NCBI RefSeq assembly: GCF_004342625.1
Contig: NZ_SMAH01000012.1
Coordinates: 1-64,000 of the forward strand
From: Tepidimonas ignava
Lineage (GTDB): Bacteria > Pseudomonadota > Gammaproteobacteria > Burkholderiales > Burkholderiaceae_C
Length of the DNA: 64,000 nucleotides
Direction: 5' to 3'
Part shown: in pieces, positions 123 through 21,804 of the stretch
How positions within the stretch are numbered: position 1 is the first letter of the stretch
Layout of the letters: each line of letters starts with the position of its first letter
The notes under the pieces: model-generated
Seen by the model: only the letters and a program-made list of their open reading frames with translations
Told to the model about the DNA's origin: nothing
The model's database searches: none
Made by a program: the position numbers and the translations under genes

Positions 123-3100
123 GTCTTAATCCCCTCGATATCGGGGAAGTGTTTCGGGCGTACCTTGGTGCGTTTGTTGTTGTTAGTTTAATGTCTTAAT
201 CCCCTCGATATCGGGGAAGTGTTTCGGGCGGATTGACAGAAAACGAAAAAGAAAAGTCTTCATAAGTCTTAATCCCCTCGATATCGGGGAAGTGTTTCGG
301 GCCCCCTGAGGGGGCGGAATACAAGATAGTCCACTTTGTCTTAATCCCCTCGATATCGGGGAAGTGTTTCGGGCGTTCGCGTCACAGTTTTTAGGAAAGT
401 TGCCGCCGTCTTAATCCCCTCGATATCGGGGAAGTGTTTCGGGCTTGGTGGTAACGAAAGGAGTGTTCGAGATGACCGTCTTAATCCCCTCGATATCGGG
501 GAAGTGTTTCGGGCCGTAGGCGGGCCATAACAGTGTTCCGGAAAATCCGGTCTTAATCCCCTCGATATCGGGGAAGTGTTTCGGGCTGGGCGTCATTGAC
601 GCCCATGTTGAAGTACCCCAAGTCTTAATCCCCTCGATATCGGGGAAGTGTTTCGGGCCGCCACAGCGGGCACATTGAGTCGGTCAGAGAGGGTCTTAAT
701 CCCCTCGATATCGGGGAAGTGTTTCGGGCGGTGACGTTCGCGTCACCGTCTTCAAAAAGACCGCGTCTTAATCCCCTCGATATCGGGGAAGTGTTTCGGG
801 CTGCCATGCGCCATGCACCATGCCATGCCATGCACGTCTTAATCCCCTCGATATCGGGGAAGTGTTTCGGGCCAGCCTGCGCCAAGACGGCGGCGATCTC
901 AACAAGTCTTAATCCCCTCGATATCGGGGAAGTGTTTCGGGCCGTGTACGGGCACGGGGCCATCATCATTCAAGGTCTTAATCCCCTCGATATCGGGGAA
1001 GTGTTTCGGGCCGACGCGCGACGACGTGCTGGAGGCGCTGGCAGTCTTAATCCCCTCGATATCGGGGAAGTGTTTCGGGCCGTGATCAAGGCGGCACTCA
1101 ACCCTCTGGACAGCGTCTTAATCCCCTCGATATCGGGGAAGTGTTTCGGGCGCTCAAGGAGTCCAAGCGCAAAGACATCAATGGCAGAGTCTTAATCCCC
1201 TCGATATCGGGGAAGTGTTTCGGGCTGTATCGCAGCCGCTACGCCGACCTTGCGGCCTGGTCTTAATCCCCTCGATATCGGGGAAGTGTTTCGGGCGCTC
1301 AAGCTCATGAAGCGCATGCGCGCCAAGGCGTCTTAATCCCCTCGATATCGGGGAAGTGTTTCGGGCTCTGCCAGCAAGCCTAGGCTGTTTGTCGAGTTCG
1401 TGTCTTAATCCCCTCGATATCGGGGAAGTGTTTCGGGCGAATCAAGTACGATTCTATCGTTCAAGGTAATGCTGTCTTAATCCCCTCGATATCGGGGAAG
1501 TGTTTCGGGCCGCGCGCAACACCGGCAGAGTCTATCGAAGACGGTCTTAATCCCCTCGATATCGGGGAAGTGTTTCGGGCGGAGCCTAGCGGCATTTTGT
1601 ACAGCGCACGGCGTCTTAATCCCCTCGATATCGGGGAAGTGTTTCGGGCGAAGCATAGTTGACAACGGCGGCGAGAAGCTTGCGTCTTAATCCGCTCGAT
1701 ATCGGGGAAGTGTTTCGGGCGCCCCAACGGCGCGCTGATGCGCGCCCTTTTCGGTCTTAATCCCCTCGATATCGGGGAAGTGTTTCGGGCAATCTTTGGT
1801 TTTGCATACGTTGGTGGAAATCAGTCTTAATCCCCTCGATATCGGGGAAGTGTTTCGGGCTACGTGAAGAAAATCCGCGGTGCTGCTTGATGGGGTCTTA
1901 ATCCCCTCGATATCGGGGAAGTGTTTCGGGCTCGTGATCCGCTGTGAGCTGGTGGATGCCAGCGGTCTTAATCCCCTCGATATCGGGGAAGTGTTTCGGG
2001 CCTTGAGCACATCGTGATCCGCTGTGAGCTGGTGGTCTTAATCCCCTCGATATCGGGGAAGTGTTTCGGGCCCATTGTGGCATACCATATGCGCCCGCGT
2101 AGGCGTCTTAATCCCCTCGATATCGGGGAAGTGTTTCGGGCGGCCTACATTGGCGGGCAACCGCTCCCCTTCACTCGGTCTTAATCCCCTCGATATCGGG
2201 GAAGTGTTTCGGGCCCCAAAACCAGTGGACCCGTGTCTGGAAGGGCGGGTCTTAATCCCCTCGATATCGGGGAAGTGTTTCGGGCACAAGGTGACGCTGA
2301 CGGCGCGCCTGAGTTACGTCTTAATCCCCTCGATATCGGGGAAGTGTTTCGGGCGCGGCCATGTGGATCGGTGGGTGGCTGTGATGCGTCTTAATCCCCT
2401 CGATATCGGGGAAGTGTTTCGGGCGGAAGTCGCGCACGAAGTCAATCACGTCACGAAGGTCTTAATCCCCTCGATATCGGGGAAGTGTTTCGGGCGATCA
2501 AGATCGAAATCGAGTCCTCGGAAGTTCGGTCTTAATCCCCTCGATATCGGGGAAGTGTTTCGGGCGTCTTGTTCCCGAATCGTGGATTCCCGTTACGTGT
2601 CTTAATCCCCTCGATATCGGGGAAGTGTTTCGGGCCGTTCCAGCCGGGACATTCGCGGCTGGCTCAGTCTTAATCCCCTCGATATCGGGGAAGTGTTTCG
2701 GGCCCTGACCCAGCGCGAGAAAGCGCGGGATGCCGGTCTTAATCCCCTCGATATCGGGGAAGTGTTTCGGGCGCCACCATCGCGCTGGCTCCGGTCAAGC
2801 AAAGCGCGTCTTAATCCCCTCGATATCGGGGAAGTGTTTCGGGCGCTCAAGCGTTCCAGTCGGGACATTCGCGGCTGGTCTTAATCCCCTCGATATCGGG
2901 GAAGTGTTTCGGGCGAAGGAGCGCCACGAGCGCGGCGAGACAAAGCGTCTTAATCCCCTCGATATCGGGGAAGTGTTTCGGGCACACGGGCAACTGCGGC
3001 ATGCACGTGCACATGTCTTAATCCCCTCGATATCGGGGAAGTGTTTCGGGCTCTCGGTGTTCGTTCTCTGGAGTCTCAACATGAGTCTTAATCCCCTCGA

Positions 3101-4040
3101 TATCGGGGAAGTGTTTCGGGCGCGGTTCGAGTTTATCCTCGATGCCGACCAAGCGTCTTAATCCCCTCGATATCGGGGAAGTGTTTCGGGCCCGTGCCTG
3201 CGGTCGTGTGGTGCGGGCAACGGGGTCTTAATCCCCTCGATATCGGGGAAGTGTTTCGGGCCTACTTGATGAAGTACATGAGCAAAGTCGGGGGCGTCTT
3301 AATCCCCTCGATATCGGGGAAGTGTTTCGGGCCTTGCTGCTGTCGGCGCCTTCTCTCGCATGGGGTCTTAATCCCCTCGATATCGGGGAAGTGTTTCGGG
3401 CAACAGTCGGGCGTGATGCACTACCACGTCGCGCTGTCTTAATCCCCTCGATATCGGGGAAGTGTTTCGGGCGCTGCGCGGCCATCCGCTCCTTGCTACG
3501 TCGCGCGTCTTAATCCCCTCGATATCGGGGAAGTGTTTCGGGCGTCGCCCGCGATGCGGTCGGCTACCTGATGAAAGTCTTAATCCCCTCGATATCGGGG
3601 AAGTGTTTCGGGCCGCATTTCGTTCGTTGCTTCCCGCGTGTTTGCAGGAGTCTTAATCCCCTCGATATCGGGGAAGTGTTTCGGGCTTGAGGAGTAGCTA
3701 TGCGTGAGTGTGTTCTTGTCGTCTTAATCCCCTCGATATCGGGGAAGTGTTTCGGGCTGTAAATCATACTAATCAGTCGCTCGATGATCCGTCTTAATCC
3801 CCTCGATATCGGGGAAGTGTTTCGGGCCCCTGAGCGGTTCGAGTTCATCCTCGATGCCGACCGTCTTAATCCCCTCGATATCGGGGAAGTGTTTCGGGCT
3901 TACCGTGAACCCGAAGTTGTGGCCGACCTCAAGGTCTTAATCCCCTCGATATCGGGGAAGTGTTTCGGGCCCGAGTGCCGCTATGTCTGGGTGGCCGAGC
4001 TTCGTCTTAATCCCCTCGATATCGGGGAAGTGTTTCGGGC
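123..4040 (-). CRISPR. CRISPR array, 56 repeats of 37 bp and 55 spacers of 31-37 bp
   Basis: A 37-bp repeat occurs 56 times with a 68-74 bp period. On the plus strand it begins GTCTTAATCCCCTCGATATC and ends GGGGAAGTGTTTCGGGC. Both terminal units (123-159 and 4004-4040) are exact. The only variant I saw is C to G at 1694. The core CCCCTCGATATCGGGG can form a short stem. Read on the minus strand the unit ends in GGGGATTAAGAC, which resembles type III repeats whose last 8 nt become the crRNA 5' handle (here AUUAAGAC). The cas genes also read leftwards into the array, so I infer minus-strand transcription with the leader at 4041-4119. Three spacer pairs overlap the same target sequence (1932-1964 with 2002-2034; 2636-2666 with 2845-2877; 3122-3154 with 3828-3862). 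Short ORFs inside the array that encode NPLDIGEVFRA-like repeats are artefacts. Confidence 0.99.
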
Positions 4041-4119
4041 CGCTTAGCCCGGAAAGCCTTTACGAAACAAGAACTTGGCAAGGGGGTTGAAGATTTTTTG
4101 GGGCATCGCAAGGCTGAGG
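4041..4119 (-). promoter_or_regulatory. Probable CRISPR leader
   Basis: This 79-bp gap lies between the stop of the second cas2 and the last exact repeat. It is richer in A/T than its surroundings, with runs such as AAAAAATC and CTTGTTTCGTAAAG on the minus strand. A leader is expected beside the adaptation genes on the side where crRNA transcription starts, and this is the only spacer that fits. I could not assign -35/-10 boxes convincingly. Confidence 0.5.
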
Positions 4120-4467
4120 TCATGGCACAGGCGCGGTGTCGGTGGCTTCCACCGCATCCAGCAGCAGCCTTGCCGCCAGCTCAGCGTCGACCTCAACCCC
4201 TTCGGGCAACGCTTGGCGCCCCAGGGTCCAGACCTTGCAGCGCGGCGGCACGTGGTAGATCCGGATGTCATCGTAGCGCTCGTCGATGATGGTGCGCAGC
4301 TTTTCTATCAGTTGCGCCAACTGCGCATCGTTTAGACTGACAACATAGCCAGAGTATTGTAAGCGCGTTCCGTGGCGCTTGGCTTGGGCGTAGGCGTGCT
4401 GTAATCGGCGGGGGTTGGCGATGTCGTACGCCAACAACCAGGTTTTTTGGTTGGTGCTTGCTTTCAC
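4120..4467 (-). CDS. Second Cas2-like protein
   Basis: A predicted 115-residue Cas2-fold protein. The first strand reads WLLAYDIANPRRLQHAYAQ, with the Asp of YDI in the position conserved in Cas2, and the rest has a ferredoxin-like alternation ending in DIRIYHVP. The C-terminus is longer than in the upstream Cas2 (93 residues). I chose the GTG at 4467 because it overlaps the stop of the preceding gene as GTGA, a usual sign of translational coupling; an in-frame ATG at 4518 would overlap that gene by 55 bp. It is the last gene before the leader. Cas2 dimers bridge Cas1 dimers in the spacer integrase, so this copy may pair with the Cas1-like protein. That pairing is inference. Confidence 0.8.
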   Translation of the reverse strand: MKASTNQKTWLLAYDIANPRRLQHAYAQAKRHGTRLQYSGYVVSLNDAQLAQLIEKLRTIIDERYDDIRIYHVPPRCKVWTLGRQALPEGVEVDAELAARLLLDAVEATDTAPVP

Positions 4468-5240
4468 GATGTCCACTCCCTCAGGCAGTGTTCCAAATCG
4501 GCCAGCATGGTGGCGCATGCCCGGTGCAGCTCCGGGCGCCTGGCGTCCAGCAGCTTGGCGGCAAAGACGGCGGGCGGTTGTTGTTGCAGGTCATCGGGGT
4601 TGATGCTGAGCAACAGGGCGTCCACACGGCCCTGCAGCAAGCGCGTTAATTCAGAGGGGATGTGCAGGCCGGGGCGGGCATGGTGCAACAGGGTGTGATC
4701 GCTGACGGCGTCGTAACAAATGGCGCTGACCAAGGTGGCCACCGCCTGGCCGGTGGCACGCAACCATGGGCCAGGCGGACGCTTCCAGCGCTGCTGCATA
4801 TGGTTGACGGCCCGCACGTGCAATTGCTGTAGCGTGTTGTTGCGGCCGTTGGGGAGCTTGTGGCGACGCTGGAAGTGGTCGCATTCGGCCCGCTCGATTT
4901 GCGCCACCCACGCGCGCCAGAAGTCTGGCCAGTCGGCATGGCGCAACGCGTCGCGCAGCAGTTGGGTTAGTGTGCGCTCCCGGCGGCGGGGGCCGTAGCA
5001 CCAGGCAACGGGCTGGCCACGCCGGTCTGTGAACACGACAGGGATACCCTGCCGCAAACAGGCCAACAAGGCATCGATGTGCCAGCGGGCCTGCGTGCTG
5101 CTTTGCACCCGCCCCAGACGTTGCAGGGGATACCATGCAGGGGCGCGGTGGGGCGTTTCGATACGCAAAGCAACCCCTTGGTCCAAGGTGATGACGCAGG
5201 GGACCCCATGCTCGATGTACAGGGCACGGTTGGTGCTCAT
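4464..5240 (-). CDS. Divergent Cas1-like protein, catalytic residues not found
   Basis: 258 residues. The N-terminal ~85 residues look like the Cas1 beta-domain (a strand-rich start, YPLQRLGRVQSS, then ALLACLRQGIPVVFTDRRG). The C-terminal helical part has none of the Cas1 metal-binding signatures: no GLEG-type Glu motif, no LH..THGR, no DLMEPWRP, all of which are present in the neighbouring true Cas1. I therefore infer a catalytically inactive Cas1 paralogue. The ATG at 5240 overlaps the cas1 stop as ATGA, and the downstream cas2 start overlaps its own stop, so all are co-translated. It could act as a structural or specificity subunit of a hetero-integrase. A Cas1-unrelated origin of the C-terminal domain cannot be excluded by eye. 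Confidence 0.65.
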   Translation of the reverse strand: MSTNRALYIEHGVPCVITLDQGVALRIETPHRAPAWYPLQRLGRVQSSTQARWHIDALLACLRQGIPVVFTDRRGQPVAWCYGPRRRERTLTQLLRDALRHADWPDFWRAWVAQIERAECDHFQRRHKLPNGRNNTLQQLHVRAVNHMQQRWKRPPGPWLRATGQAVATLVSAICYDAVSDHTLLHHARPGLHIPSELTRLLQGRVDALLLSINPDDLQQQPPAVFAAKLLDARRPELHRACATMLADLEHCLREWTS

Positions 5241-6214
5241 GGCTCGTCGGTGGGTGCGGCGTCGGGCCACTGCGGGGCGTCTCGTAACAGCGCGCGGGCG
5301 AGCTGACGCGCATGGCGTTGCATGGCGCGACTGCACATTTTTTGCACGGGGGTGAAGGCGGCGTAGAAGTGCGCACGGGCGGCCTTGCCCATCAGGCACG
5401 CCCCCGCGCCGTCGCGCCCAAAGTGGTCGGGGCGCAGGTACCGTTGCCGGAATTGATCCCACACCCAGGCGTCAACCGTTGGGCGCCACGGCTCCATCAG
5501 ATCGCTGGCCATGGAGGCACGGCCGTGCGTAGGTTGGTGCAAAAAACCCACCATGGGGTCCAGCCCAGCAACCCAGCAGGCCTGTACGGCGGCGCTGTAC
5601 AGCAGGGTGTATCCCAGGGAGAGTGTGGCGTTGACGGGGTCGGGCGGCGGCCGCCGCTGGCGCCCACCAAAATGCAGGGACGCGGCGAAGAGCTGGGCGT
5701 ACGCCCTGAAGTACGCAGCCGCGGCGGCCCCTTCCAGCCCACGCAGGGTGCCGGGCTCGCGGCACGCTTGCACGCTGTTGACGATGGACTGCAATGTTTG
5801 GCATGCCTGCGTCAACGGCAGGTGCAAGTCGGGGCGGTGCTGGATGGCGTGGCTGAGAAGCCGCCATTGCCGACGCACTTTGGCGCCCACCAGCACCGAG
5901 CACCAGTGCCCCGCTCGGGCAGGGTCTTGGTGGTTTAGCAACTGGGCGATGCGGATGCGGGCGTCGTTGTGGGGTTTGCCCAGCACGTGCGCGACCCGTT
6001 GGCCGTTGCGGCCGCCCAAGACGACGACTCCAATGCCATCGTCGGCCAGTGCCGCGAGGGTGTGACTGCTCAGGCGCGTGTCGGCCCGCAGCACCACGCG
6101 GGTGATCAAGGCACCCGGCAGTGTGCGCAGCAGCGTGCCGTCGCGGCGCAGTTCGATGGCGCCTTGTCGGTAGCGCAGCTCGGTGTCCGCTTGGTCCAAG
6201 TACAGCACGCCCAC
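5237..6214 (-). CDS. cas1: CRISPR-associated endonuclease/integrase Cas1
   Basis: 325 residues, normal length for Cas1. This metal-dependent integrase inserts protospacers at the leader end of the array together with Cas2. The catalytic set is visible: Glu161 in TLRGLEGAAAAAYF, His226 in GFLHQPTHG, and Asp238 with Glu241 in ASDLMEPWRP. The N-terminal beta-domain begins GVLYLDQADTELRYRQG. The start lies 10 bp after the upstream cas2 stop and the gene overlaps the Cas1-like gene by 4 bp. No reverse transcriptase is fused or adjacent, although one occurs in some type III adaptation modules. Confidence 0.97.
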   Translation of the reverse strand: MGVLYLDQADTELRYRQGAIELRRDGTLLRTLPGALITRVVLRADTRLSSHTLAALADDGIGVVVLGGRNGQRVAHVLGKPHNDARIRIAQLLNHQDPARAGHWCSVLVGAKVRRQWRLLSHAIQHRPDLHLPLTQACQTLQSIVNSVQACREPGTLRGLEGAAAAAYFRAYAQLFAASLHFGGRQRRPPPDPVNATLSLGYTLLYSAAVQACWVAGLDPMVGFLHQPTHGRASMASDLMEPWRPTVDAWVWDQFRQRYLRPDHFGRDGAGACLMGKAARAHFYAAFTPVQKMCSRAMQRHARQLARALLRDAPQWPDAAPTDEP

Positions 6215-6224
6215 GGTGCCACCC

Positions 6225-6506
6225 TCAGCCGTGGTAAAAAAATTCGCTGTCTTGAGGGGCTACGGCTTTGCCCAAGGTGTGCACGCGGGCGCGCGGATCC
6301 AGTTGCACAAAAACAACCCGGTCGGTTTGCGGATCGATGATGCGACGCAGGGCATGCATGGCTTGCTGCAGCTCGGCGCTGGTCAGCCAGCACTCGTACA
6401 GCGATTTTTGCCCGCCGATGGCGTTGCCCTTGACGGTTTTGAGGGCTTGGCGGCGGCGCTTGTGACTGCTGATGTCGTAGCCAATGAGAAACAGGTGGCG
6501 CAGCAT
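6225..6506 (-). CDS. cas2: CRISPR-associated protein Cas2
   Basis: 93 residues from the ATG at 6506 (LRHLFLIGYDIS...), a typical Cas2 length. The conserved first-strand Asp is in IGYDIS, followed by the basic helix KRRRQALKTVKGNA and a strand VVFVQLDP. Longer in-frame starts lack support because conservation begins at MLRHLF. It is the first gene of the adaptation operon cas2-cas1-cas1-like-cas2 and lies 113 bp downstream of the Card1 stop, leaving room for its own promoter, in which a 16-bp palindrome sits. Confidence 0.93.
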   Translation of the reverse strand: MLRHLFLIGYDISSHKRRRQALKTVKGNAIGGQKSLYECWLTSAELQQAMHALRRIIDPQTDRVVFVQLDPRARVHTLGKAVAPQDSEFFYHG

Positions 6507-6619: not shown

Positions 6620-7789
6620 TCACGCCTGCGTCCAGTGGCGCAAACGTTCGGGCAGTTGTCGCAGTTCACCCGCACTCAGGACGTCAACGCGGTACTCCTT
6701 GGCACGGTTGCGCTGGGCCTGGTTCATCTCCCGTGCCGACAGCAGCATCGCTTGGGCCATTTGCCCACCCACCGCTTCGGCAAGTTTGGCAAGCTTGTAG
6801 ATCCAGTCGCTCAGGTCATCGTCAGGGCGCGCAGCTTTGCACTCCACCACCAGCATGCGGTTGTCGTGCACGAGCACGGCGTCAAGCTCGTTGCGGGTGC
6901 GTGTGTCGACGTGTTCGATGCACAGGCGGGGCTCCCAACCACCATTGGGTCGAAGACCGCGCATTTTGAGGGCGGCCAGCTCCTCCACCCAGCCGCCGCC
7001 GAGGTACTGGGCCGCTGAGTCGTCGTGGAAGTGCACGGTGTCGGCTCCGCCCCAGCTGATGAGGCCATGCGCGCAAGCACGCCGCAGCAGTTCCTTGGGT
7101 GCGCCGTTGGGAATGTGGCGCAGACGCTGTTCGGGCTCAAAGGGCTTGTGTCGGTGCGGATCGGCCCGCGCGGCGTTGGCCACGTGGTTGAGCGCGCCCA
7201 AAAAACCCCCCAGTTCCGCGCTGTGCTCACCCAACCACCGGGTGAGGTCTGCCCTTTCCTGCGCCGCCGCTTGCCAGCCGGCCAGGTTGGGGCCGCCGGT
7301 GCCACCCACGCGGCGGTAGCCTTGCACGAGCAAGATGTCGTCAATGCCCAGCACGGGTTGCATAGCCTCGCTGCGCGGCTGTGGAGCCAGCCAATCCAAA
7401 CGCCGGTTTTTGGTGTCGCAGTACACCAGGTGTGGCGGCTCGGCGCCGGGCGCGGTGGCCAAATCGGCGGCCAGCGTTTGCACCAGCGCCAGGGTCATGG
7501 GCTTGGTGCCGCCCGTAAAGTTGATGGTGACAGCCCGGCTGCCCACCTCGCGCGCGATACGCTCGGCTTGCCGGTGCAAGGTGGTAACGTCGTCGTCGGC
7601 AAAAGGCAGCGTGCGCGCGGCAATGCCGTGCGCATTGAGGGCCGTGACCAGATGAGCGGCGGAACGCAGGCGCTGCATGGCCGGCGTTTCCAGAATCCAC
7701 ACTTCCTGGGCCCGGCACTGCAGCGCGGGAATAAGGTTGGCTTGATTTTGCCCGGTGGCGATGACGATGTGCAGCGGTGGGGTGCTCAT
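6620..7789 (-). CDS. card1: Card1/Can2-type CARF nuclease (DUF1887 family)
   Basis: 389 residues. The N-terminal CARF domain carries the cOA-binding signature INFTGGTKPM at about residues 87-96. The C-terminal PD-(D/E)XK nuclease domain shows NELDAVLVHDNRMLVVECKA at about residues 299-318, with the Asp and Glu-X-Lys of the active site. This two-domain layout and length match Card1/Can2, in which cyclic tetra-adenylate from Cas10 activates cleavage of single-stranded DNA and RNA. It follows cas6 by 6 bp at the end of the cmr6-cad1-crn2-cas6 segment, so it is presumably co-expressed with the ring nuclease that would limit its activity. Ligand and substrate are inferred from the family. Confidence 0.9.
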   Translation of the reverse strand: MSTPPLHIVIATGQNQANLIPALQCRAQEVWILETPAMQRLRSAAHLVTALNAHGIAARTLPFADDDVTTLHRQAERIAREVGSRAVTINFTGGTKPMTLALVQTLAADLATAPGAEPPHLVYCDTKNRRLDWLAPQPRSEAMQPVLGIDDILLVQGYRRVGGTGGPNLAGWQAAAQERADLTRWLGEHSAELGGFLGALNHVANAARADPHRHKPFEPEQRLRHIPNGAPKELLRRACAHGLISWGGADTVHFHDDSAAQYLGGGWVEELAALKMRGLRPNGGWEPRLCIEHVDTRTRNELDAVLVHDNRMLVVECKAARPDDDLSDWIYKLAKLAEAVGGQMAQAMLLSAREMNQAQRNRAKEYRVDVLSAGELRQLPERLRHWTQA

Positions 7790-7795
7790 GGCGAT

Positions 7796-8674
7796 TCAGA
7801 CCGGATGGAGTTGGTAGCGCCCTAGACCAAAGCTGGTTTTGCCGCCAGCGTGCAGCCATTGGCCCAGTTGCAGCAGCGGCCAAAAAGGCACCAGGTCGCC
7901 CACCAGCACGCCGTGACCGACCACGCCACTCAACGGGGTGTTGCGGCCTTGGCGGTTGCTCCAGCGCTCGAAGCGGTGGTCGCTCCACTGCCCGTGCGCA
8001 AAGCGCAAGCGGGCCGCGGCGGATTTGAGGGCTTGGAAGTCCAGCCCCGTGGGGTGCTGCAAGTGCAGCTCGCACACCTCGGCCACGCGGCGCACCACCG
8101 CCCACACAAAATCGGCTGCAGACCATTGACGCGCGGGCACGGGCCGGCCTTCCCGCTTGATGAACAGCGGGGTGAGCAGCTGCACGTGCACCCGGACCGG
8201 CGCAGGGCCCATGTCAAGTTGGACGTGCGGTTGCAAGCACTCAAAACGTTCCAGCGCCATCGCGCCGCGCGCGGGGCCGATGTTGGCGCTGAGCGCTTGC
8301 CTCCAGGCTTGTTGCACCAGCGGCCCATGGTTGAGCGCCGCGCCGAACAGCACCAGGTCGAAGTGGAAGGTCTGCCCGACTGGCAAGCTACGCGGGCCAT
8401 CGCTCGGCTCGATGACGTACGGTGGGGTCATGTCCCCGTAGGTGCGGCTGCCGGGCGGCGGCGCTGGCTCGAACAAGGCCATGTACGGACAGCGTGTGCG
8501 CAGGGGGCACGCCGCGCAGTCGGACAGTCCTGTGGCGCAGGCCATGCGGCGCAGCGCATGCCCCCATAAGCCACGCAGGGCGGAACCTTCGTACTCGGGC
8601 CAGTGCACGGGTCGCAGCACGCGCGCTTGTACACGCCAGCGCTGGACGGGAAACGGGTTGGGTAGAGCGGTCAT
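7796..8674 (-). CDS. cas6: Cas6-type crRNA-processing endoribonuclease
   Basis: 292 residues with the RAMP fold. An N-terminal YEGSALRGLWGHALRR segment is followed by the Cys-rich stretch CAACPLRTRCPY typical of this Cas6 family, and a C-terminal glycine-rich loop GGKTSFGLGRYQL binds RNA in relatives. Cas6 cuts pre-crRNA inside each repeat and leaves the 8-nt handle loaded into Cmr complexes. It is the only Cas6 candidate in the locus. It lies 14 bp after the Crn2 gene and 6 bp before Card1, within one transcription unit. I could not assign the catalytic His by eye. Confidence 0.88.
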   Translation of the reverse strand: MTALPNPFPVQRWRVQARVLRPVHWPEYEGSALRGLWGHALRRMACATGLSDCAACPLRTRCPYMALFEPAPPPGSRTYGDMTPPYVIEPSDGPRSLPVGQTFHFDLVLFGAALNHGPLVQQAWRQALSANIGPARGAMALERFECLQPHVQLDMGPAPVRVHVQLLTPLFIKREGRPVPARQWSAADFVWAVVRRVAEVCELHLQHPTGLDFQALKSAAARLRFAHGQWSDHRFERWSNRQGRNTPLSGVVGHGVLVGDLVPFWPLLQLGQWLHAGGKTSFGLGRYQLHPV

Positions 8675-8688
8675 GGGTGTGCAGCGGC

Positions 8689-9012
8689 TCAGGCGATGCG
8701 CCGGAGCAAGCCAAAACTATGGGGCAACCGCGCCAGCGCCTGGGCATCGAGCACCTGTCCTTCGGGCAGGCGCTGCTCGAGCCGCAGCACCAAGGCTTCG
8801 TCGCCGGGCTGCATGTGCACGGCGATGCGCGCGCACGGCACCGGCTGGCCGAGGCACTGCGAGAGGAATTGCGCCGTGGCGGCGTGCCCGATCGCGCTGC
8901 GCCAGGGGCCGGCAGCCGCAAACGCGCGAGCTTGCTCCACAGTCAACGGGCCTTGGTAGTGCCAATGCCCGTAGTCTGTGAGCACGGGACTGTTGAGCAG
9001 GTAGCGGTTCAT
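8689..9012 (-). CDS. crn2: Crn2 ring nuclease (DUF1874, AcrIII-1 family)
   Basis: 107 residues from the ATG at 9012, which overlaps the preceding stop as ATGA. The family pattern is clear: a YLLNSPVL start, SAIGHAATAQFLS with His43 in the place of the catalytic His, PCARIAVHMQPGDEAL, then LRLEQRLPEG with Glu84 in the place of the second conserved catalytic residue. Viral AcrIII-1 and host Crn2 proteins of this family cleave cyclic tetra-adenylate quickly, shutting down type III ancillary effectors. Its position between Cad1 and Cas6 in the cmr operon supports a host timer role rather than a viral anti-CRISPR. Confidence 0.93.
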   Translation of the reverse strand: MNRYLLNSPVLTDYGHWHYQGPLTVEQARAFAAAGPWRSAIGHAATAQFLSQCLGQPVPCARIAVHMQPGDEALVLRLEQRLPEGQVLDAQALARLPHSFGLLRRIA

Positions 9013-11240
9013 CGGATAGTGGGTGTTGCCGTGGGGCACATGGCGACATCCATCAAGCGCTGCGCGGCTGCGCGCTGCAGGTCGAGCCGCTCCTGCGCCG
9101 ACACGAAGGCACTTTGGTAGGCTGTGCGCAACAGGGCCAACGCAGTCCAGGCCGTGAGGTTGGGGGTCACGCGGGCCGCCAGTCGGTACTCGTCCGCCAA
9201 GGTGGTGCGCGAAATGGCGGGGTTGTCGGTGTTGAGGGTCAGGGGCAGGCCCATGCCCAACATGCGATCAAGCGGATAGTCGTCCAGCTCGGCAGTGGCA
9301 GGAACCGCTGGATCTTTGAAGCCGACGACCTCGCGGTTGGAGGTGGGGCATAGCTCCAAGGCGATGCCGCGGTCGCGGAAGCGCTGCGCCAGCGGAGGGT
9401 GGTCGATTAGCGTCAGGCCGTGGCCGATGCGGTCGGCGTGCAAATGGTAGGCGGCTTGCCAAATGCGGTCGGCACTCTCACCTTCGCCCGCGTGGATGGT
9501 GATGCGCAAGCAGGCCTGCAACGCCGGTTCGAAGTCGCGGGCCAAGGCCTCGGGTTGGGTGGTACCTTCGTCGCCGGCCAGATCCAGCCCCAACATGAAA
9601 TCAGGCAAGCGTTCGCTGGCCCGAACGGCGGCGCGCACGACGTGGGCTGACTGGTCACGCTGACGGCGATCGACGATCCAGATCAGACCAGCCCGCAGGC
9701 ACCCGCTGCCATTGAATCGGGTGGTGGTAGCGCCTGCATCCCGCAAAGCCCGCTCGAACGCCTGCACCCAACCGACCGGGTCATGCGGCCAGTACTTGTG
9801 CGGGCTGGCGCGCCACTCCACGTACAACAAGCCTTCGTCCAAGGCCTGGCGCACCACGGCACGCGCATACGGTTCGATGGCCGCGGGGTGACCCAACAGG
9901 GCCGAGCCGCTGAGCTCCCCCGGACGCTCGTAGGCCGCAAACCCCAACGGGTGGCGGCGCTTGAGCGCGATGCGGGGCTCGGTATCAGCCCACAGCAGTC
10001 GCGCGAGCGACTCGGGGCTGCGCTCGGTCAGCACCAGGCTCACGATCACAGCACGGGCGTGTTCACGTGGTAGTCCGGTAGCTTGTGCCAGCGCCGCCGC
10101 GGCGTCGCGCAGCCGCTGCGGCCAGTCGCCGGCCGCGCGGGCGCTGCCATCGCCAACCCAGCTCGGCCAAGCGTGTTGCAAAGCGTGTTGGGCCAACGCG
10201 CGCGTGCCCGCGTCGGTCACGTGGAGCACACACGCCGCCACCTCACGCTGCTGATCAAGCGGTAGGCTGCCGCCCAGGTGCCGATGAAGGTCAGCCAAGG
10301 GCCAGCGCCCTGGGTGGGCCAGTGGGTCGTCGCTGCAGGCCAACAAGGGTTGGCGCAGCCTGTCGATGCGTGCCGGATCCAAGCGCAGCAACACGGGCCA
10401 AGGTTCGTAAGGATCTTGGCGCGCCATGGCCAGCGCTTGCCCGATCAGCAAACGCTGGGCTTCTTGGCGGCGGCGCTCAATGGCATCGTGCAGCCAGCGG
10501 CCGTCGGGTTGCCACGTGTTTTGCACGATGTCATGGCCTGCCTTGAGAGGCAGCGGGAAATCTGCGGCCGCGAGGGATGCTCCCTCGCTGCCCATGCGCA
10601 CCGCCGGCTCACCCGCGGCGGCAGACACGACGATGGGCGAGAGGGCTGCCGCCACATCGGCTGGCAGCGGCTGCAGCCATTCGGTGTACGGAGCATCAAG
10701 CCAGCCGCGTTGGCGTAGCGCGACATCATCGGCCACCACGTGCAGCAAGGCCTGTGCGCCAAAGGCGTGCGCAGCGTCTTGCAGGTCGGCGCTCATGGTT
10801 TTGCGCCCGCCAGCCAGCGAGATCATGACCTGTCCGCCATCGGCGCGCTCATGCGCCGCCAGCACAGCGCGCAGCGCCATTTCGCGCCAGCACCGGCACT
10901 CCTCGGCCGTGGCCAGCGCATCGGTGTCGGCTGCAGCCCAGATCTGCAACAGCGGGCGCTCGGGCTCAGGCAGGCGCTCGGTCAACACTTGCCACCATTG
11001 GCACAGCTGATCGACGCTCTTGCGTGCCGAGCCGCCACCGGTGGTCAGAACCCAGACCTCGTGCGGTTCGGCAAGGCCTTGGCGCTGGTGGTGCTCTTGC
11101 AGGGCCGCGCGCTGGGGATGCAGGGCGTACAGGTCCACCCAGCCGGGCGCCAGCCAGCCCAGCACTTCGGGCACCACGGCCCAACTGGCGCCAAGGCTGG
11201 CGACCAGTATGTGGCGTGGGTGTTGCGTCGCTTCAGCCAT
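9009..11240 (-). CDS. cad1: Cad1-type CARF-adenosine deaminase fusion
   Basis: 743 residues. The N-terminal CARF domain has VMISLAGGRKTMS at about residue 140. A linker follows, then a complete adenosine-deaminase barrel from about residue 315. All metal/catalytic motifs are present: DLHRHLGGSL (HxH), ITIHAGEGES, DRIGHGLTL, ELCPTSNREV and LTLNTDNPAIS. In described Cad1 proteins cOA binding switches on deamination of ATP to ITP, arresting growth or phage. I chose the ATG at 11240, which overlaps the cmr6 stop by 8 bp; upstream in-frame sequence is an out-of-frame read of cmr6. Its stop overlaps the crn2 start. Substrate and ligand here are inferred from the family. Confidence 0.93.
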   Translation of the reverse strand: MAEATQHPRHILVASLGASWAVVPEVLGWLAPGWVDLYALHPQRAALQEHHQRQGLAEPHEVWVLTTGGGSARKSVDQLCQWWQVLTERLPEPERPLLQIWAAADTDALATAEECRCWREMALRAVLAAHERADGGQVMISLAGGRKTMSADLQDAAHAFGAQALLHVVADDVALRQRGWLDAPYTEWLQPLPADVAAALSPIVVSAAAGEPAVRMGSEGASLAAADFPLPLKAGHDIVQNTWQPDGRWLHDAIERRRQEAQRLLIGQALAMARQDPYEPWPVLLRLDPARIDRLRQPLLACSDDPLAHPGRWPLADLHRHLGGSLPLDQQREVAACVLHVTDAGTRALAQHALQHAWPSWVGDGSARAAGDWPQRLRDAAAALAQATGLPREHARAVIVSLVLTERSPESLARLLWADTEPRIALKRRHPLGFAAYERPGELSGSALLGHPAAIEPYARAVVRQALDEGLLYVEWRASPHKYWPHDPVGWVQAFERALRDAGATTTRFNGSGCLRAGLIWIVDRRQRDQSAHVVRAAVRASERLPDFMLGLDLAGDEGTTQPEALARDFEPALQACLRITIHAGEGESADRIWQAAYHLHADRIGHGLTLIDHPPLAQRFRDRGIALELCPTSNREVVGFKDPAVPATAELDDYPLDRMLGMGLPLTLNTDNPAISRTTLADEYRLAARVTPNLTAWTALALLRTAYQSAFVSAQERLDLQRAAAQRLMDVAMCPTATPTIR

Positions 11241-12576
11241 GGGATCCACGCAACGCGGCCAGCCCCAGCCTTCTGCGCAGGTCCCTGGGGTCGATGTTGA
11301 TGAGTTTGGCGCCCCAGGTTTCGACGGCATCCGCTGCCGCCGCGCGGTCAGCCGGGCTCCAATTTTCACTTTGGACCAGCGTGACCATGTTTTGCAGGGC
11401 CTGGTAATCCTGCTGCCCAACCAATGTTTTGCGGCCGCGCAGCTCGTTGGCCCGCGCCTGCATGCGGGCATTGAACTCTTCAAGGGCGCGTTGCGCCGGG
11501 CTGAGCTGGGCCAGCCGTTGCTGGCGCTCGTGTTCGGCCTGACGTTGCCGTTGTTCCTCCAGGGCACGCTGCCGCGCCTGCCTGTCGTACCGCATCGCAC
11601 CATAGCCCACAGCGGTCTTGGCGCCAAAGCCCAGCCACGCAAAGGCGTGTTCGAAGGCGGCTTCGAGCAGGGTCTGCCAACGGGGCTGGCCGCCGTCGTT
11701 GCCCAACAGGGCGCCATCCAGGCGCTCGAGGCGGCGCACATCGCACACCACATGGAAGCTGAAGGTGGAGCCCGGCGGCACCGTGAGAAACGCGATCGGG
11801 TTGGGCTGGCCCGAGTCGTGGGGCGAGGTTGAGTCTCCCGCTTTGCGCTCGTTCTTCTGCTGGTAGTAGTGCGACTGGTGGGGCGTCATGATCTCGACCA
11901 TCAGGCTGTCGCCCTTGATCTGCGGGATCACGTCCCAAAAGCTGAGCACGCCGCGTTGCGGGTTGTTGCTGTCTTCGGTTCCAAAGAGCACGTCGATGGC
12001 TGCCTGGTTCCAGCCCCGCGTATCGCCCCACTCACCGCGAGCCAACTCCTGCGCCGCGCGACGCAGCACGCCTTTGACGCCACTGCCGGGCAGGTACGGC
12101 AGCCCATACGGCCACAGGAACGAAAAGCCGTTTTCCAGGGGGTGTTCGTTGCCCAGGCCCGTGGTGAAGGGGGCAATGGCGGTGGCATCGATGGTCAGGC
12201 ACTGGATGGCGGGCATTGTGCCGACCACTTCGCGTGCACGTGTGTTGAGCGCCCGTATGTACTCAAGATCCCGCTTGGTAAGTGCTCGGACTTGGCTCCA
12301 TGCCTCGCGAGCAGCAAAGTCATTTTTCTCCCAAAGCCCCGGCAGAGGACTGCGTGGACGCGCCCTAAGCGCGGCAATGGTAGCTTCCATGCCGCTGTGG
12401 TGCAGCAGCTGCGCCACTTCCTGACCTTCACGGCTTCGGGCTTGCCCCCGCTTGCGCACCTGCGCTTCCTGATCGGCACGGTCGGTCCATATCGGCAGTA
12501 AAAGCCCAAACCGCATCCCTGGCGAAGCATCTTTGAAGTCTTGCCCAAGGTAGGCGGGCACAGCAGCAACAGGCAT
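11233..12576 (-). CDS. cmr6: Type III-B RAMP protein Cmr6
   Basis: 447 residues. The RAMP signatures are PYLPGSGVKGVLRRAAQ near residue 160 and GFGAKTAVGYGAMRY near residue 330. Cmr6 forms part of the Cmr backbone at the 3' end of the crRNA. A charged, helical C-terminal extension rich in Arg, Gln and Glu makes it longer than many homologues. The gene starts 54 bp from the divergent RHH antitoxin start, so its transcription must begin in that short gap or read through the antisense toxin-antitoxin block. It begins the segment cmr6-cad1-crn2-cas6-card1. Confidence 0.9.
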   Translation of the reverse strand: MPVAAVPAYLGQDFKDASPGMRFGLLLPIWTDRADQEAQVRKRGQARSREGQEVAQLLHHSGMEATIAALRARPRSPLPGLWEKNDFAAREAWSQVRALTKRDLEYIRALNTRAREVVGTMPAIQCLTIDATAIAPFTTGLGNEHPLENGFSFLWPYGLPYLPGSGVKGVLRRAAQELARGEWGDTRGWNQAAIDVLFGTEDSNNPQRGVLSFWDVIPQIKGDSLMVEIMTPHQSHYYQQKNERKAGDSTSPHDSGQPNPIAFLTVPPGSTFSFHVVCDVRRLERLDGALLGNDGGQPRWQTLLEAAFEHAFAWLGFGAKTAVGYGAMRYDRQARQRALEEQRQRQAEHERQQRLAQLSPAQRALEEFNARMQARANELRGRKTLVGQQDYQALQNMVTLVQSENWSPADRAAAADAVETWGAKLINIDPRDLRRRLGLAALRGSHG

Positions 12577-12585
12577 GGTGAGACT

Positions 12586-12620
12586 CCTGTGTATTACAAT
12601 GTCTTACACGTATTGAGGGG
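12586..12620 (+). promoter_or_regulatory. Promoter/operator region of the RHH-PIN pair, divergent from cmr6
   Basis: The inverted repeat GTGTA-N11-TACAC spans 12589-12609. It encloses the -10-like TACAAT at 12595-12600. RHH antitoxins usually bind short palindromes over their own promoter. The cmr6 start is only 13 bp from the left arm, so binding here could also affect cmr6. The Shine-Dalgarno GAGGGG starts at 12615. Confidence 0.4.
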
Positions 12621-12630
12621 GATGGCTGCG

Positions 12631-12849
12631 ATGTCCACCACTTTGACGATCCGGCTCGATGACAAGCTCGATGTGCAGCTCACCCGGCTGGCCCAGGAGA
12701 CTGGACGCACGAGAAGCGAGCTCGTGCGCAGCTTCATTCGACAGCAGATGGCCCGGGCGCGGTTCGAGCGCGCGCGGCGGCTCATCGAGCCCGCGGCTGA
12801 GCGCGCAGGGTATCTCACGGACGAAGACGTCTTTCGCGACGTTTCGTGA
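12631..12849 (+). CDS. Ribbon-helix-helix (CopG-type) antitoxin
   Basis: 72 residues. The N-terminal strand TLTIRLDDKLDVQL and the helices LAQETGRTRSELVRSFIRQQ are a clear ribbon-helix-helix DNA-binding fold. The acidic C-terminus ending DEDVFRDVS is probably the toxin-binding tail. I chose the ATG at 12631 because GAGGGGG lies 9 bp upstream; an ATG at 12622 sits on top of that site. Its stop overlaps the toxin's GTG start. It reads opposite to the cmr genes and probably represses its own promoter, 54 bp from cmr6. Confidence 0.88.
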   Translation: MSTTLTIRLDDKLDVQLTRLAQETGRTRSELVRSFIRQQMARARFERARRLIEPAAERAGYLTDEDVFRDVS

Positions 12850-13268
12850 AAACCTTTCTCGACACCAACGTCTGGATCAGCGCCTTTGCCACAAAAGGGC
12901 TTGCGCGCGAGCTGGTGGCATTGGTGTTGGACTTGAATGCCAGCGGCGAACTCACACTGTTGATCAGCGACGCCGTACAGCAAGAGACGGCGCGCGTGCT
13001 GCGTGAAAAGTTCGGTCTTGATCCGGCCGCCATTGACACCGCCTTGGATGTCCAAGCCATGGCGGCGACCTGCGTGCCCGCGACGGCCGGGCTGCTCCCA
13101 ACCGACATCCCCGACCCCGACGATGCCCCCATCCTTGCCGCAGCGCTGGCCGCCGGCGCCGACCTGTTCGTCACCGGCGACAAGGCGCTGCTCGCTCTTG
13201 GTGCCGTGGAAAGCATGCCGATCGTGGAGCCGCGCGCGGCCTACCTCAAGCTGCGTGGCCTGGCGTGA
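12846..13268 (+). CDS. PIN-domain toxin, partner of the RHH antitoxin
   Basis: 140 residues from a GTG start that overlaps the antitoxin TGA. The PIN acidic residues are visible: Asp6 in TFLDTNVWISAF, a Glu in QQETARVLRE, then Asp residues in DIPDPDDAPILAAAL and DLFVTGDKALL. PIN toxins are metal-dependent RNases. The gene converges on cmr5, whose stop lies 21 bp away. Its base composition resembles its neighbours. Whether it serves defence or only stabilises the locus is unknown. Confidence 0.88.
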   Translation: MKTFLDTNVWISAFATKGLARELVALVLDLNASGELTLLISDAVQQETARVLREKFGLDPAAIDTALDVQAMAATCVPATAGLLPTDIPDPDDAPILAAALAAGADLFVTGDKALLALGAVESMPIVEPRAAYLKLRGLA

Positions 13269-13288
13269 ATTGGCGAGCCGCATCGCGC

Positions 13289-14900
<1,612 letters not shown>

Positions 14901-14908
14901 CCCAGCCG

Positions 14909-15304
14909 ATGTACCTTCTGGACACCTGCACGCTGCTGTGGTGGCTTGCGCAGCCGCAACGGCTGACACCCAAAGTTCGCGACGTCATCGCCGATCCTGC
15001 CGTCGACGTCGCGGTCAGTGTGGTGACGTTGTGGGAGATCTTGGTCAAGGTGCGTAGTGGCAAGATCCGCATCCTCGCCGAGGGCCATGGCACCTATGAC
15101 TTTTTGTTGAAGGCAGTGGCCGCGTCCGGGTTCAAGACGCTTGCGCTGCTGGAACACGACTTGCGCCACACGCTTCAGCTGCCCATGCTGCACCGCGATC
15201 CGTTTGATCGCATGTTGATCTGCCAAGCGATCGAAAACGCCATGACCTTGGTCACGCCGGACGTGGCCATTCATCGTTATCCGATCCGCACGCTGTGGGA
15301 TTGA
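14909..15304 (+). CDS. PIN-domain toxin, partner of the Phd-type antitoxin
   Basis: 131 residues. The PIN motifs are Asp5 in YLLDTCTLLWWLA, Glu in TLWEILVKV, and the two Asp of HRDPFDRMLICQA, with LVTPDVAIHRY at the end. I chose the ATG at 14909, 9 bp after the antitoxin stop; a TTG at 14897 overlapping that stop is possible. The gene ends 17 bp before the convergent cmr3 stop, so this pair sits tightly between cmr3 and cmr4. An RNase role is inferred from the fold. Confidence 0.88.
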   Translation: MYLLDTCTLLWWLAQPQRLTPKVRDVIADPAVDVAVSVVTLWEILVKVRSGKIRILAEGHGTYDFLLKAVAASGFKTLALLEHDLRHTLQLPMLHRDPFDRMLICQAIENAMTLVTPDVAIHRYPIRTLWD

Positions 15305-15321
15305 GGGTGTGCTGAGGCGGT

Positions 15322-19490: not shown

Positions 19491-19493
19491 CGC

Positions 19494-21677: not shown

Positions 21678-21716
21678 TGTGCGGCGAGCATACCAAAGGC
21701 CAGCCACATTGGGTGG

Positions 21717-21732
21717 TTTCACAAGCTTGTCA
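21717..21732. promoter_or_regulatory. Palindromic candidate operator upstream of the NE0113-cmr operon
   Basis: TTTCACAAGCTTGTCA contains the palindrome ACAAGCTTGT and lies 40-55 bp before the NE0113 start. On the minus strand the same site reads TGACAAGCTTGTGAAA and includes TTGACA, a good -35 hexamer. It differs at one base from the site before cas2 (6574-6589). A shared regulator of interference and adaptation is inferred. Confidence 0.55.
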
Positions 21733-21804
21733 AGTGCAGCACCACCCGGGCCCCGGGCAAGCTATCGTTGCGGGCCAACAACACGCGGGCAACGTGCCCT
21801 TGCG

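Follow-up and report, generated by a model that had tools for sequence, protein, structure and literature searches.

A recurrent CRISPR adaptation module encoding an active-type Cas1, a Cas1-fold homologue without a complete active site and two distinct Cas2 proteins

The window analyzed here, a stretch of 64,000 nucleotides of a Tepidimonas ignava contig, carries a CRISPR adaptation module in which an active-type Cas1 is encoded together with a Cas1-fold protein (Cas1L) and with two different Cas2 proteins (Cas2A and Cas2B). The recurrence of this set suggests a spacer-inserting machine that possesses two kinds of each part and is not assembled from identical copies. On a slight balance of probability, we propose that the four genes would encode a single hetero-oligomeric Cas1-Cas2 integrase, with Cas1L as a dedicated non-catalytic Cas1 subunit and with Cas2A and Cas2B at its center.

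Results

The module lies beside the array of a type III-B locus

The module spans positions 4120 to 6506 with all four genes on the minus strand, and its end is 79 bp from the CRISPR array. cas2A (6225..6506) encodes a Cas2 of 93 aa (Pfam CRISPR_Cas2, E 9.9e-14) with a GGQKS motif and a C-terminal FYHG tail, and cas1 (5237..6214) an active-type Cas1 of 325 aa (Pfam Cas_Cas1, E 6.9e-66) whose triad E161/H226/D238 is intact. They are followed by cas1L (4464..5240; 258 aa), recognized by Pfam Cas1, PADLOC, HHalign and structure matches as a protein of Cas1 fold in which the Glu and His segments are missing, and by cas2B (4120..4467), a second Cas2 with a longer tail (115 aa with GTG 4467 as start; Pfam CRISPR_Cas2, E 1.9e-14). 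Both Cas2 proteins pass the Pfam Cas2 model PF09827, with 51.7 and 54.1 bits against a cut-off of 23.8. The active-type Cas1-Cas2 pair and the second, longer Cas2 announced in a preliminary description of this DNA are present. Of the 4-bp translational overlaps that it also listed, the one between cas1 and cas1L (5237-5240) stands and the one between cas1L and cas2B stands if cas2B starts at GTG 4467, but cas2A and cas1 are separated by a 10-bp gap.

A leader-side interval of 79 bp (4041..4119, minus strand, from the array coordinates) separates cas2B from the first repeat of the array (123..4040, minus strand), which comprises 56 repeats of 37 bp and 55 spacers of 31-37 nt. From the GGGATTAAGAC end of the repeat we infer the orientation of the array, with the crRNA sense on the minus strand. 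A comparison of the window array with phages returned no match at E 0.01.

On the other side of the module, and again on the minus strand, are found a Card1-like CARF nuclease (6620..7789; Pfam Card1_endonuc 2.7e-21), cas6 (7796..8674; Pfam CRISPR_Cas6 6.9e-13, PADLOC Cas6 1.9e-79), csx16 (8689..9039; PADLOC Csx16 1.8e-34) and a CARF-adenosine deaminase reading frame (9009..11753; PADLOC CARF5--CARF_ADA 8e-192), which we take to be Cad1-like and whose true start is internal, since the domain match begins at residue 181. The cmr gene block (11233..20561, minus strand; Pfam, NCBIfam and PADLOC) contains cmr6 (11233-12576), cmr5 (13289-13750), cmr4 (13662-14576), cmr3 (15322-16539), cmr2/cas10 (16470-19490) and a RAMP gene (19494-20561) that is probably cmr1, judging by its RAMP match and position; it is followed by an NE0113/Csm6-type protein (20568..21722, minus strand; Pfam Cas_NE0113 1.4e-46, TIGR02584 2.8e-68). 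With cas10/cmr2, cmr3, cmr4, cmr5, cmr6 and an array, the host locus is a type III-B CRISPR-Cas system. None of the 20 proteins encoded between 4120 and 24061 matched a Pfam RVT model of reverse transcriptase.

In the available DNA around the modules, a Card1-, Cad1- or NE0113-type relative was seen at 19 of 32 loci. At L024, L080, L088, L026 and L018 the effector type is unassigned or judged solely from the neighbors: a scan of ten large proteins from eight loci gave a Pycsar cyclase match at L026 and identified the large L018 protein as an efflux component, and nothing matched the large proteins of L024, L080 and L088. Dead enzymes often turn into regulators, and this frequent company of signaling proteins would suit a Cas1L acting as a regulator or substrate-selection adaptor, for instance linking adaptation to type III signaling, and not as a core integrase subunit. 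We nevertheless consider such a role very unlikely, as Cas1L adjoins cas1 at 33 of 33 loci and is not placed among the effectors, and as its similarity to Cas1 is strongest in the N-terminal domain.

Cas1L has a Cas1 fold and an incomplete active site

Profile-profile alignment of Cas1L with Cas1 (HHalign) scored 99.1% in global mode, covering 249 of 258 columns; in local mode the score was 98.0%, with 247 columns covered. Pfam Cas1 (PF01867) matched the window Cas1L at E 2.1e-5 over residues 24-119 only, passing its cut-off (24.2 versus 22.3 bits); at 10.9 bits the protein remains below the NCBIfam TIGR00287 cut-off of 71.7, and the same model gave 15.6, 16.7 and 28.5 bits for three of four other Cas1L, the fourth being absent from the matches listed. 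Likeness in sequence is greatest across the N-terminal domain, which in the structure model fits 4n06_A over 80 residues at rmsd 2.1; the modeled helical domain fits 9p11_C over 160 residues at rmsd 3.8. A second modeled homologue behaved likewise (rmsd 2.0 over 76 residues and 3.2 over 164 for the two domains), both models being single chains computed from 6-row alignments with pTM of 0.55 and 0.63. The titles of the 50 structure matches listed for each model are those of Cas1 or Cas1-containing complexes, apart from one casposase (6opm) for the second homologue and from 2yzs and 4zkj, whose titles lack the word Cas1 and which we take to be Cas1. By these models and the profile alignment, Cas1L is a two-domain, full-length Cas1 by fold; the preliminary description had credited it with the N-terminal beta-domain.

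That description had also reported the loss of the catalytic triad. This holds for Glu and His, whose positions are gaps in Cas1L in the profile-profile alignment, but only in part for Asp, which is present in 24 of 33 Cas1L homologues and replaced by Glu197 in the window. All 55 aligned rows of ordinary and module Cas1 (34 from modules) keep the E/H/D triad, which is present in the module Cas1 of 33 out of 33 loci. Since Glu and His fall in gaps and the Asp position is variable, Cas1L is judged from its sequence to be a Cas1-fold homologue without a complete active site and is not classed as a Cas1 integrase.

The four-gene set recurs in one order

The genes cas2A-cas1-cas1L occur in a single order at 33 loci, with cas2B next in 31 and cut off by contig ends in the other two, and the four-gene set is also present in other proteobacteria. 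As these loci were collected by Cas1L searches alone, the repetition of this order is not attributable to chance; automated start choice widens some of the cas1/cas1L gaps relative to alternative starts. Every strong Cas1L homologue that was opened lay inside such a module, and none of these was found away from CRISPR loci.

The window Cas1L as a single query against genome contigs and a tblastn search of Cas1L against plasmids gave no match, and a pattern search from the smaller alignment A3 found five loci, four of which, by the length of the contig and the position of the genes, lie on contigs of loci already counted. In one genome set 12 of 74 genomes matched, with module-level scores in only three (G503, G591 and G483); in a further set three of four matched, G167 among them, and two of the three had module-level scores. 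In a wider set searched at 1e-6, 35 of 319 matched: seven exceeded 70 bits and were all already known, and the other 28, with 54 bits at best, were taken for ordinary Cas1 on the grounds of frame length and partial match. Two weak matches, L030 (found in G682) and L099, each with a lone ordinary-type Cas1, were left out of the counts.

Cas1L is strongly diverged, with 14-24% identity to the window protein among 30 others, and at L133 cas2A, cas1 and cas2B are kept with at most a short remnant of cas1L. This divergence, the near-absence at L133 and the incomplete triad are what would be seen if Cas1L were a functionless decaying duplicate. Its reading frames are nonetheless open over 248-298 aa at 32 of 33 loci (the 33rd is interrupted by a contig end), its position in the gene order never varies, and dN/dS ranges from 0.16 to 0.41 in five of six close pairs and is 0.62 in the sixth, several pairs being near-saturated at silent sites. 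We thus disfavor decay as scarcely credible.

Two Cas2 lineages and a neighboring reverse-transcriptase clade

The two Cas2 proteins differ consistently. All 33 module Cas2A carry the motif G[GR]Q[KR]S and a C-terminal tail [FY][FYI]x[GAK]; this tail has the strict form FYxG in 21 of them and is absent from all 31 Cas2B. Cas2B also separates from Cas2A in a Cas2 tree, which comprises only 94 columns and leaves 53 of 90 inner branches open. The distance matrices of the four module proteins correlate at 0.50-0.66, values that carry little information apart from shared descent.

The Cas1 tree groups the Cas1s of the modules in a single clade (34 rows, SH-aLRT 99). Its sister may be either of two lineages, because the module clade, a clade associated with reverse transcriptase (RT) and L146 (one Cas2, long branch) meet at one unresolved fork with support of 92. 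The seven loci of the RT clade are organized cas2-cas2-cas1-RT, with a Cas2A-like protein, a Cas2B-like protein and a single Cas1; the frame after cas1 is conserved, and all four of the proteins scanned from these seven loci contain RVT_1. No Cas1L was detected at the seven loci, where the Cas1L profile at E <=10 matched the single Cas1 (23.7-35.1 bits) and otherwise nothing above 6.4 bits.

Because this neighboring clade has two Cas2s with one Cas1, a doubled Cas2 does not need Cas1L, and may be the older of the two features. The preliminary description saw in the module a probable duplication of one cas1-cas2 pair. This may have happened, but doubling of Cas2 followed later by Cas1L appears from these sequences to be the simpler history; loss of Cas1L from the RT clade would rescue the pair duplication. 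The same clade bears on the possibility that Cas1L pairs with itself and with Cas2B in a complex of its own that does not integrate but captures, holds or hands over (or titrates) prespacers, leaving Cas1-Cas2A as an ordinary integrase. Four proteins, two of Cas1 type and two of Cas2 type, could indeed make up two complexes, cas1L adjoins cas2B wherever both are visible (31 loci) and the Cas2s differ in tail and motif. The Cas2B-like protein of the RT clade, however, needs no Cas1L, and we regard a separate complex as unlikely.

Overlapping spacers

In module arrays (337 spacers, 18 loci) we counted 12 overlapping spacer pairs on the same strand and none on opposite strands, versus seven and one in control arrays (974 spacers in 34 arrays, from 40 loci), identical spacers being excluded from both counts; three of the module pairs come from a triple at L090 that shares one repetitive sequence, and in five of the seven same-strand control pairs the shift is at most three bases. 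The RT clade had no overlapping pair among 68 spacers from five loci. Same-strand pairs prevail in module and control arrays alike, so that these counts, taken as a test of an asymmetric integrase, do not tell the two apart.

Discussion

Characterized integrases are built from a Cas2 dimer and, on its flanks, four copies of one Cas1; in each Cas1 dimer catalysis falls to one subunit, and its partner provides walls and contacts. Since Cas1L accompanies a Cas1 of active type and a pair of Cas2s at 33 loci, a hetero-complex is the natural reading of the module. Our proposal builds on the Cas1 fold, on the missing Glu and His segments, on the conserved order of the genes, on dN/dS values that stay under 0.5 in five of the six pairs and on the common inheritance of the module Cas1s, from which we infer a complex, its stoichiometry and a division of labor. 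Each distal dimer would consist of a catalytic Cas1 and a structural Cas1L, the center would pair Cas2A with Cas2B, whose differing C-terminal tails would dock the two kinds of Cas1, and the split between catalytic and structural Cas1 subunits would be fixed in separate genes. The preliminary description had likewise suggested a hetero-complex with a non-catalytic Cas1; its components are in place, and their assembly is conjectural. It further suggested that the non-catalytic half may read the protospacer or leader, a role that is hypothetical for Cas1L. The available parts of published structural work are compatible with such roles: active Cas1 subunits lie at the ends of the complex and inactive ones form channel walls (PMC12259127), non-catalytic Cas1b is set apart from Cas1a (PMC8102632) and the Cas2 C-terminal strand touches the N-terminal domain of Cas1B (PMC6620040). 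Counted against a hetero-integrase are the two Cas2s with one Cas1 of the RT clade, the near-loss of cas1L at L133, the Asp retained in 24 of 33 Cas1L and the sixth dN/dS pair.

A possible, speculative pay-off would be an asymmetric machine that sets spacer orientation for a type III effector needing an RNA match. In its strongest form, which we think rather doubtful, an obligate hetero-hexamer of Cas1/Cas1L and Cas2A/Cas2B, with symmetry broken in the genes, would orient spacers on its own, with no need of Cas4 or of PAM reading, and yield crRNAs matching transcripts; if true, it would solve in another way what the RT clade solves with its reverse transcriptase. Asymmetry could also reside in a complex with a Cas1 dimer at one end and a Cas1L dimer at the other, which would join only one strand (a half-site), leave completion to a host polymerase or nuclease and thereby set spacer direction. 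The parts list is asymmetric, and the RT in the neighboring clade's module is a context where single-ended joining would make sense, but characterized integrases, in the accessible part of PMC12259127, use two Cas1 transesterification sites, one per repeat end, and we hold half-site joining to be distinctly improbable.

Should the hetero-integrase be confirmed, it would offer experimental access to roles that cannot be mutated apart where, as in the passages covered on integrase structures, one protein plays both parts of the Cas1 dimer. A module with a dead Cas1 and two Cas2s would let prespacer sensing, repeat sensing and spacer direction be separated, and could be informative on how type III systems that lack reverse transcriptase gain usable spacers, with the seven RT-bearing loci as a natural comparison.

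Comparison with known systems

The preliminary description knew of no described system of this form. No functional description of the module was found in the literature searched, which included few subscription papers and, in part, PMC12259127, PMC8102632, PMC6620040, PMC9048733, PMC3150331 and PMC6452270, and the terms sought for the module do not occur in PMC5513706; the gene itself, however, has already been seen by curators. In PADLOC the profile titled "Cas1, diverged variant, second in the loci" (PDLC01185) recognizes the window Cas1L at 1.3e-12 (the library gives it no curated cut-off), in agreement with cas1L following the active cas1, and is the best family for seven of eight other Cas1L scanned, the exception, L097, scoring higher with two ordinary Cas1 profiles. 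As far as readable, this entry is a profile alone, with no function, partner or structure attached.

RT-Cas1 and Cas6-RT-Cas1 integrases share with the window module type III adaptation and two classes of Cas1 subunit, which there are distinguished by conformation (PMC8102632, in the part available). Both classes are formed by one polypeptide in these integrases, whereas the window module encodes them in two genes, and its operon showed no RT. The RT-clade modules resemble it in having a Cas2A-like and a Cas2B-like protein and a Cas1 of the nearest clade, and differ in lacking Cas1L and in the frame after cas1, a reverse transcriptase in the four of seven loci scanned. With the canonical homomeric Cas1-Cas2 integrase, finally, the window module shares a Cas1 with an intact triad, the Cas2 fold and genes placed by the leader end of the array, and it differs by the addition of a dead Cas1 and of a second, distinct Cas2.

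A four-gene adaptation module at the array end of a type III-B operon

A type III-B operon, identified with Pfam, NCBIfam and PADLOC, lies on the minus strand of the window and has the adaptation genes at its array end. Read along that strand, it encodes an NE0113/Csm6-type protein, a cmr1-like RAMP, cmr2/cas10, cmr3, cmr4, cmr5, cmr6, a CARF-adenosine deaminase (Cad1-like), csx16, cas6 and a Card1-like nuclease, followed by cas2A (6225..6506), cas1 (5237..6214), cas1L (4464..5240, encoding a 258-aa Cas1-like protein) and cas2B (4120..4467) and, after 79 bp, the CRISPR array (123-4040). The array comprises 56 repeats, one of which deviates from the consensus, and 55 spacers of 31-37 nt. The crRNA strand, as read off the repeat end GGGATTAAGAC, would place the leader next to cas2B.

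Other features of the locus deserve mention. Since Card1-like, Cad1-like and NE0113/Csm6-type proteins and Csx16 are all encoded within this one type III-B locus (6620-11753 and 20568-21722), several signalling outputs may act together there. On the plus strand, between cmr6 and cmr5 (12595-13268), lie genes for a ribbon-helix-helix protein and a PIN-domain protein (Pfam RHH_1 and PIN_3), which we take to be a VapBC-like pair. In the array, three pairs of spacers overlap in a staggered way on a shared target; across 18 module loci, 337 spacers include 12 such pairs, all in one orientation, as are 7/8 pairs in control arrays. Two minus-strand frames collinear with the cmr operon, one of 260 aa between cmr4 and cmr3 (14642-15424) and one of 333 aa adjoining the NE0113-type gene (21719-22720), gave no match in Pfam or NCBIfam.

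Conservation and distribution of the module

Homologues were located by Cas1L alone, ignoring neighbouring genes. Among the 13 neighbourhoods opened in the first searches, 12 held the module, one of them ended by its contig inside cas1L, and the other (L030) held a lone ordinary-type Cas1. When 369 genomes drawn from across the class were searched, Cas1L found matches at 1e-6 in 21, the window's own genome included; all 20 others were opened and 19 carried the module, L099 being without it. With one further new locus from a separate search (L055) and the window itself, 33 module loci were obtained. The genes cas2A, cas1 and cas1L were present in the same order in 33/33, and cas2B came next in 31 (counting L098, where the frame is merely 50 aa and close to a contig end), the two others losing it to contig ends. 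The preliminary description was right in reporting a doubled adaptation module, and the placing of cas1L between cas1 and cas2 was likewise recovered in these 31 loci. Under automated start choice the exact 4-bp overlap of cas1 and cas1L occurs in 12/33 loci. Arrays were detected at 18 modules. At 16 of these the array is found downstream of cas2B, at a distance of at most 300 bp, and at L087 and L090 it is upstream of cas2A.

The distribution searches covered groups within the phylum. Cas1 was found at 1e-5 in 133 of the 369 genomes of the class draw, 20 of which, own genome included, have the module; a phylum draw gave Cas1L matches above 70 bits in 7/319 genomes. By name, the carriers comprise Mariprofundales, Mariprofundaceae, Zetaproteobacteria and an unclassified gammaproteobacterium. 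Closer to the window, the module is present in one of ten other genomes searched from its genus, and it recurs in a second genus of the same family and in two more families of the order. Effectors were surveyed by BLAST with window genes in the sequence around 32 loci (L055 excepted): cmr genes were present at 16, cmr or other type III genes at 27, and a Card1-, Cad1- or NE0113-type relative at 19; the remaining loci lie on short contigs or were scanned as single proteins alone. Four loci without a cmr match (L085, L086, L087 and L092) have Csm-type genes according to PADLOC, so that the module, judging from gene content, accompanies type III-A as well as III-B and is not tied to the latter.

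Cas1L has a Cas1 fold and has lost catalytic segments

By sequence alone, window Cas1L is barely over the cut-off of the Pfam Cas1 family (residues 24-119), and the NCBIfam Cas1 model, at 10.9 bits against a cut-off of 71.7, would leave it unnamed. A profile of 33 Cas1L homologues aligned with Cas1 at 99.1% over 249 columns in global mode and at 98.0% over 247 columns in local mode. AlphaFold2 models had a mean pLDDT of 81.0 and pTM of 0.55 for the window protein, and of 86.9 and 0.63 for a Mariprofundales homologue. Residues 3-84 of the former superpose on 4n06_A (Z 12.9, rmsd 2.1 over 80) and residues 90-257 on 9p11_C (Z 10.4, rmsd 3.8 over 160); residues 1-78 of the latter superpose on 5ds5_B (rmsd 2.0 over 76) and residues 85-258 on 9p1d_F (Z 11.9, rmsd 3.2 over 164). 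Whole-chain superpositions of both models exceeded an rmsd of 11, presumably because the inter-domain angle differs, and Foldseek TM-scores were low (0.22-0.41 among the 50 matches listed, best E 1.3e-7). Both domains of these single-chain models thus match Cas1 structures, which bears out the proposed Cas1 fold: Cas1L is a Cas1 by predicted fold.

The catalytic Glu, His and Asp are intact in the active-type Cas1 of all 33 module loci. The preliminary description had Cas1L lacking this triad, which holds for Glu and His, whose positions lie in deleted segments of the profile-profile alignment. It holds only in part for Asp, still present in 24/33 (Glu in the window), so that one acidic residue of the triad is often retained. 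With these segments deleted and the Asp position variable, the alignment indicates that a Cas1-type active site as known cannot form. That Cas1L is a decaying gene seems very improbable. For six close pairs, several with near-saturated silent sites, dN/dS was 0.17, 0.16, 0.41, 0.17, 0.35 and 0.62 for cas1L and, in the same order, 0.15, 0.07, 0.14, 0.19, 0.32 and 0.41 for cas1. The gene can nevertheless probably be lost: L133 (4673-6516) retains cas2A, cas1 and cas2B, and the roughly 160 bp separating the last two hold at most a weak remnant of cas1L, a frame of 66 aa that overlaps the end of cas1 by 4 bp and faintly resembles the start of Cas1L (tblastn E 0.029; profile E 0.014).

A putative Cas1/Cas1L complex on two different Cas2 proteins

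The domain that Cas1L retains is the one through which Cas1 dimerises, and a protein keeping it without the catalytic segments is what one would predict for a subunit that never catalyses. The two Cas2 proteins differ at their C-terminal end, where [FY][FYI]x[GAK] is found in 33/33 Cas2A (strict FYxG in 21/33) and in 0/31 Cas2B; by analogy, this difference would sit where Cas2 meets Cas1. A catalytic Cas1a is set apart from a non-catalytic Cas1b in Cas6-RT-Cas1-Cas2 (PMC8102632), and the C-terminal strand of Cas2 touches the N-terminal domain of Cas1B (PMC6620040). Taken together, these roles and contacts, the losses in Cas1L and the Cas2 tails favour Cas1/Cas1L dimers, with Cas1L as the permanent non-catalytic subunit, on a core in which Cas2A would pair with Cas2B. 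We consider this arrangement, whose stoichiometry and contacts we infer, to be just on the probable side. The differing Cas2 tails would also suit Cas1L and Cas2B forming separate complexes, which we regard as unlikely. An integrase with one dead end is more doubtful still. A role of Cas1L as a regulator appears improbable. The hetero-complex first suggested for the module is, in short, plausible but unproven: a Cas1 fold without the Glu and His segments and two differing Cas2 speak for it, the assembly itself being deduced.

Origin of the module

In a tree of 55 Cas1 sequences (33 module Cas1s, L133, seven from a neighbouring clade with reverse transcriptase and 14 others), all with intact Glu/His/Asp, the module Cas1s form one clade of 34 rows including L133 (SH-aLRT 99). 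The clade of seven (support 97) and L146, a long-branched locus with a single Cas2, share a fork with it (support 92), in an order that the tree leaves open. These seven loci (L132, L135, L136, L138, L140, L141 and L142), taken from 20 hand-chosen among Cas1-bearing genomes of the class draw and hence no random sample, encode a Cas2A-like protein, a Cas2B-like protein and one Cas1, followed at the cas1 stop by a conserved frame that is a reverse transcriptase in the four scanned (Pfam RVT_1). A search of the seven with the Cas1L profile (E up to 10) found the single Cas1 alone (23.7-35.1 bits), everything else scoring at most 6.4 bits. In a Cas2 tree with just 94 usable columns, module Cas2A groups as a single clade (support 95). 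The next fork holds the Cas2A-like group (93), and the Cas2B-like proteins (98) are placed among module Cas2B. Three genome bins (G1145, G1056 and G805; contamination estimates 4-6%) contain both module kinds. A duplication of the gene pair, as originally proposed, is still possible but is not the simplest history, because the reverse transcriptase clade has two Cas2 with one Cas1: these trees would most simply have Cas2 doubled first and Cas1L arising or being recruited later in one lineage. A loss of Cas1L from the reverse transcriptase clade is a possible alternative.

Relation to known adaptation systems

PADLOC profile PDLC01185, "Cas1, diverged variant, second in the loci", matches window Cas1L (1.3e-12) and is the top family for 7/8 other Cas1L proteins scanned; no such gene was matched in the 14 control genomes searched. 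Curators have thus already seen the gene, which qualifies the claim that no system of this form is described, although nothing on the four-gene module or on what Cas1L does turned up in the literature searched, whose coverage was incomplete. The module is a real, conserved and functionally unexplained CRISPR adaptation variant, curated as a profile and, as far as we have searched, unstudied. In its accessible part, a review of type III adaptation (PMC9048733) contains no mention that we found of a doubled cas1/cas2 set. It states that most III-B systems are without cas1 or cas2, and that Cas1 and Cas2 suffice for the type III adaptation tested.
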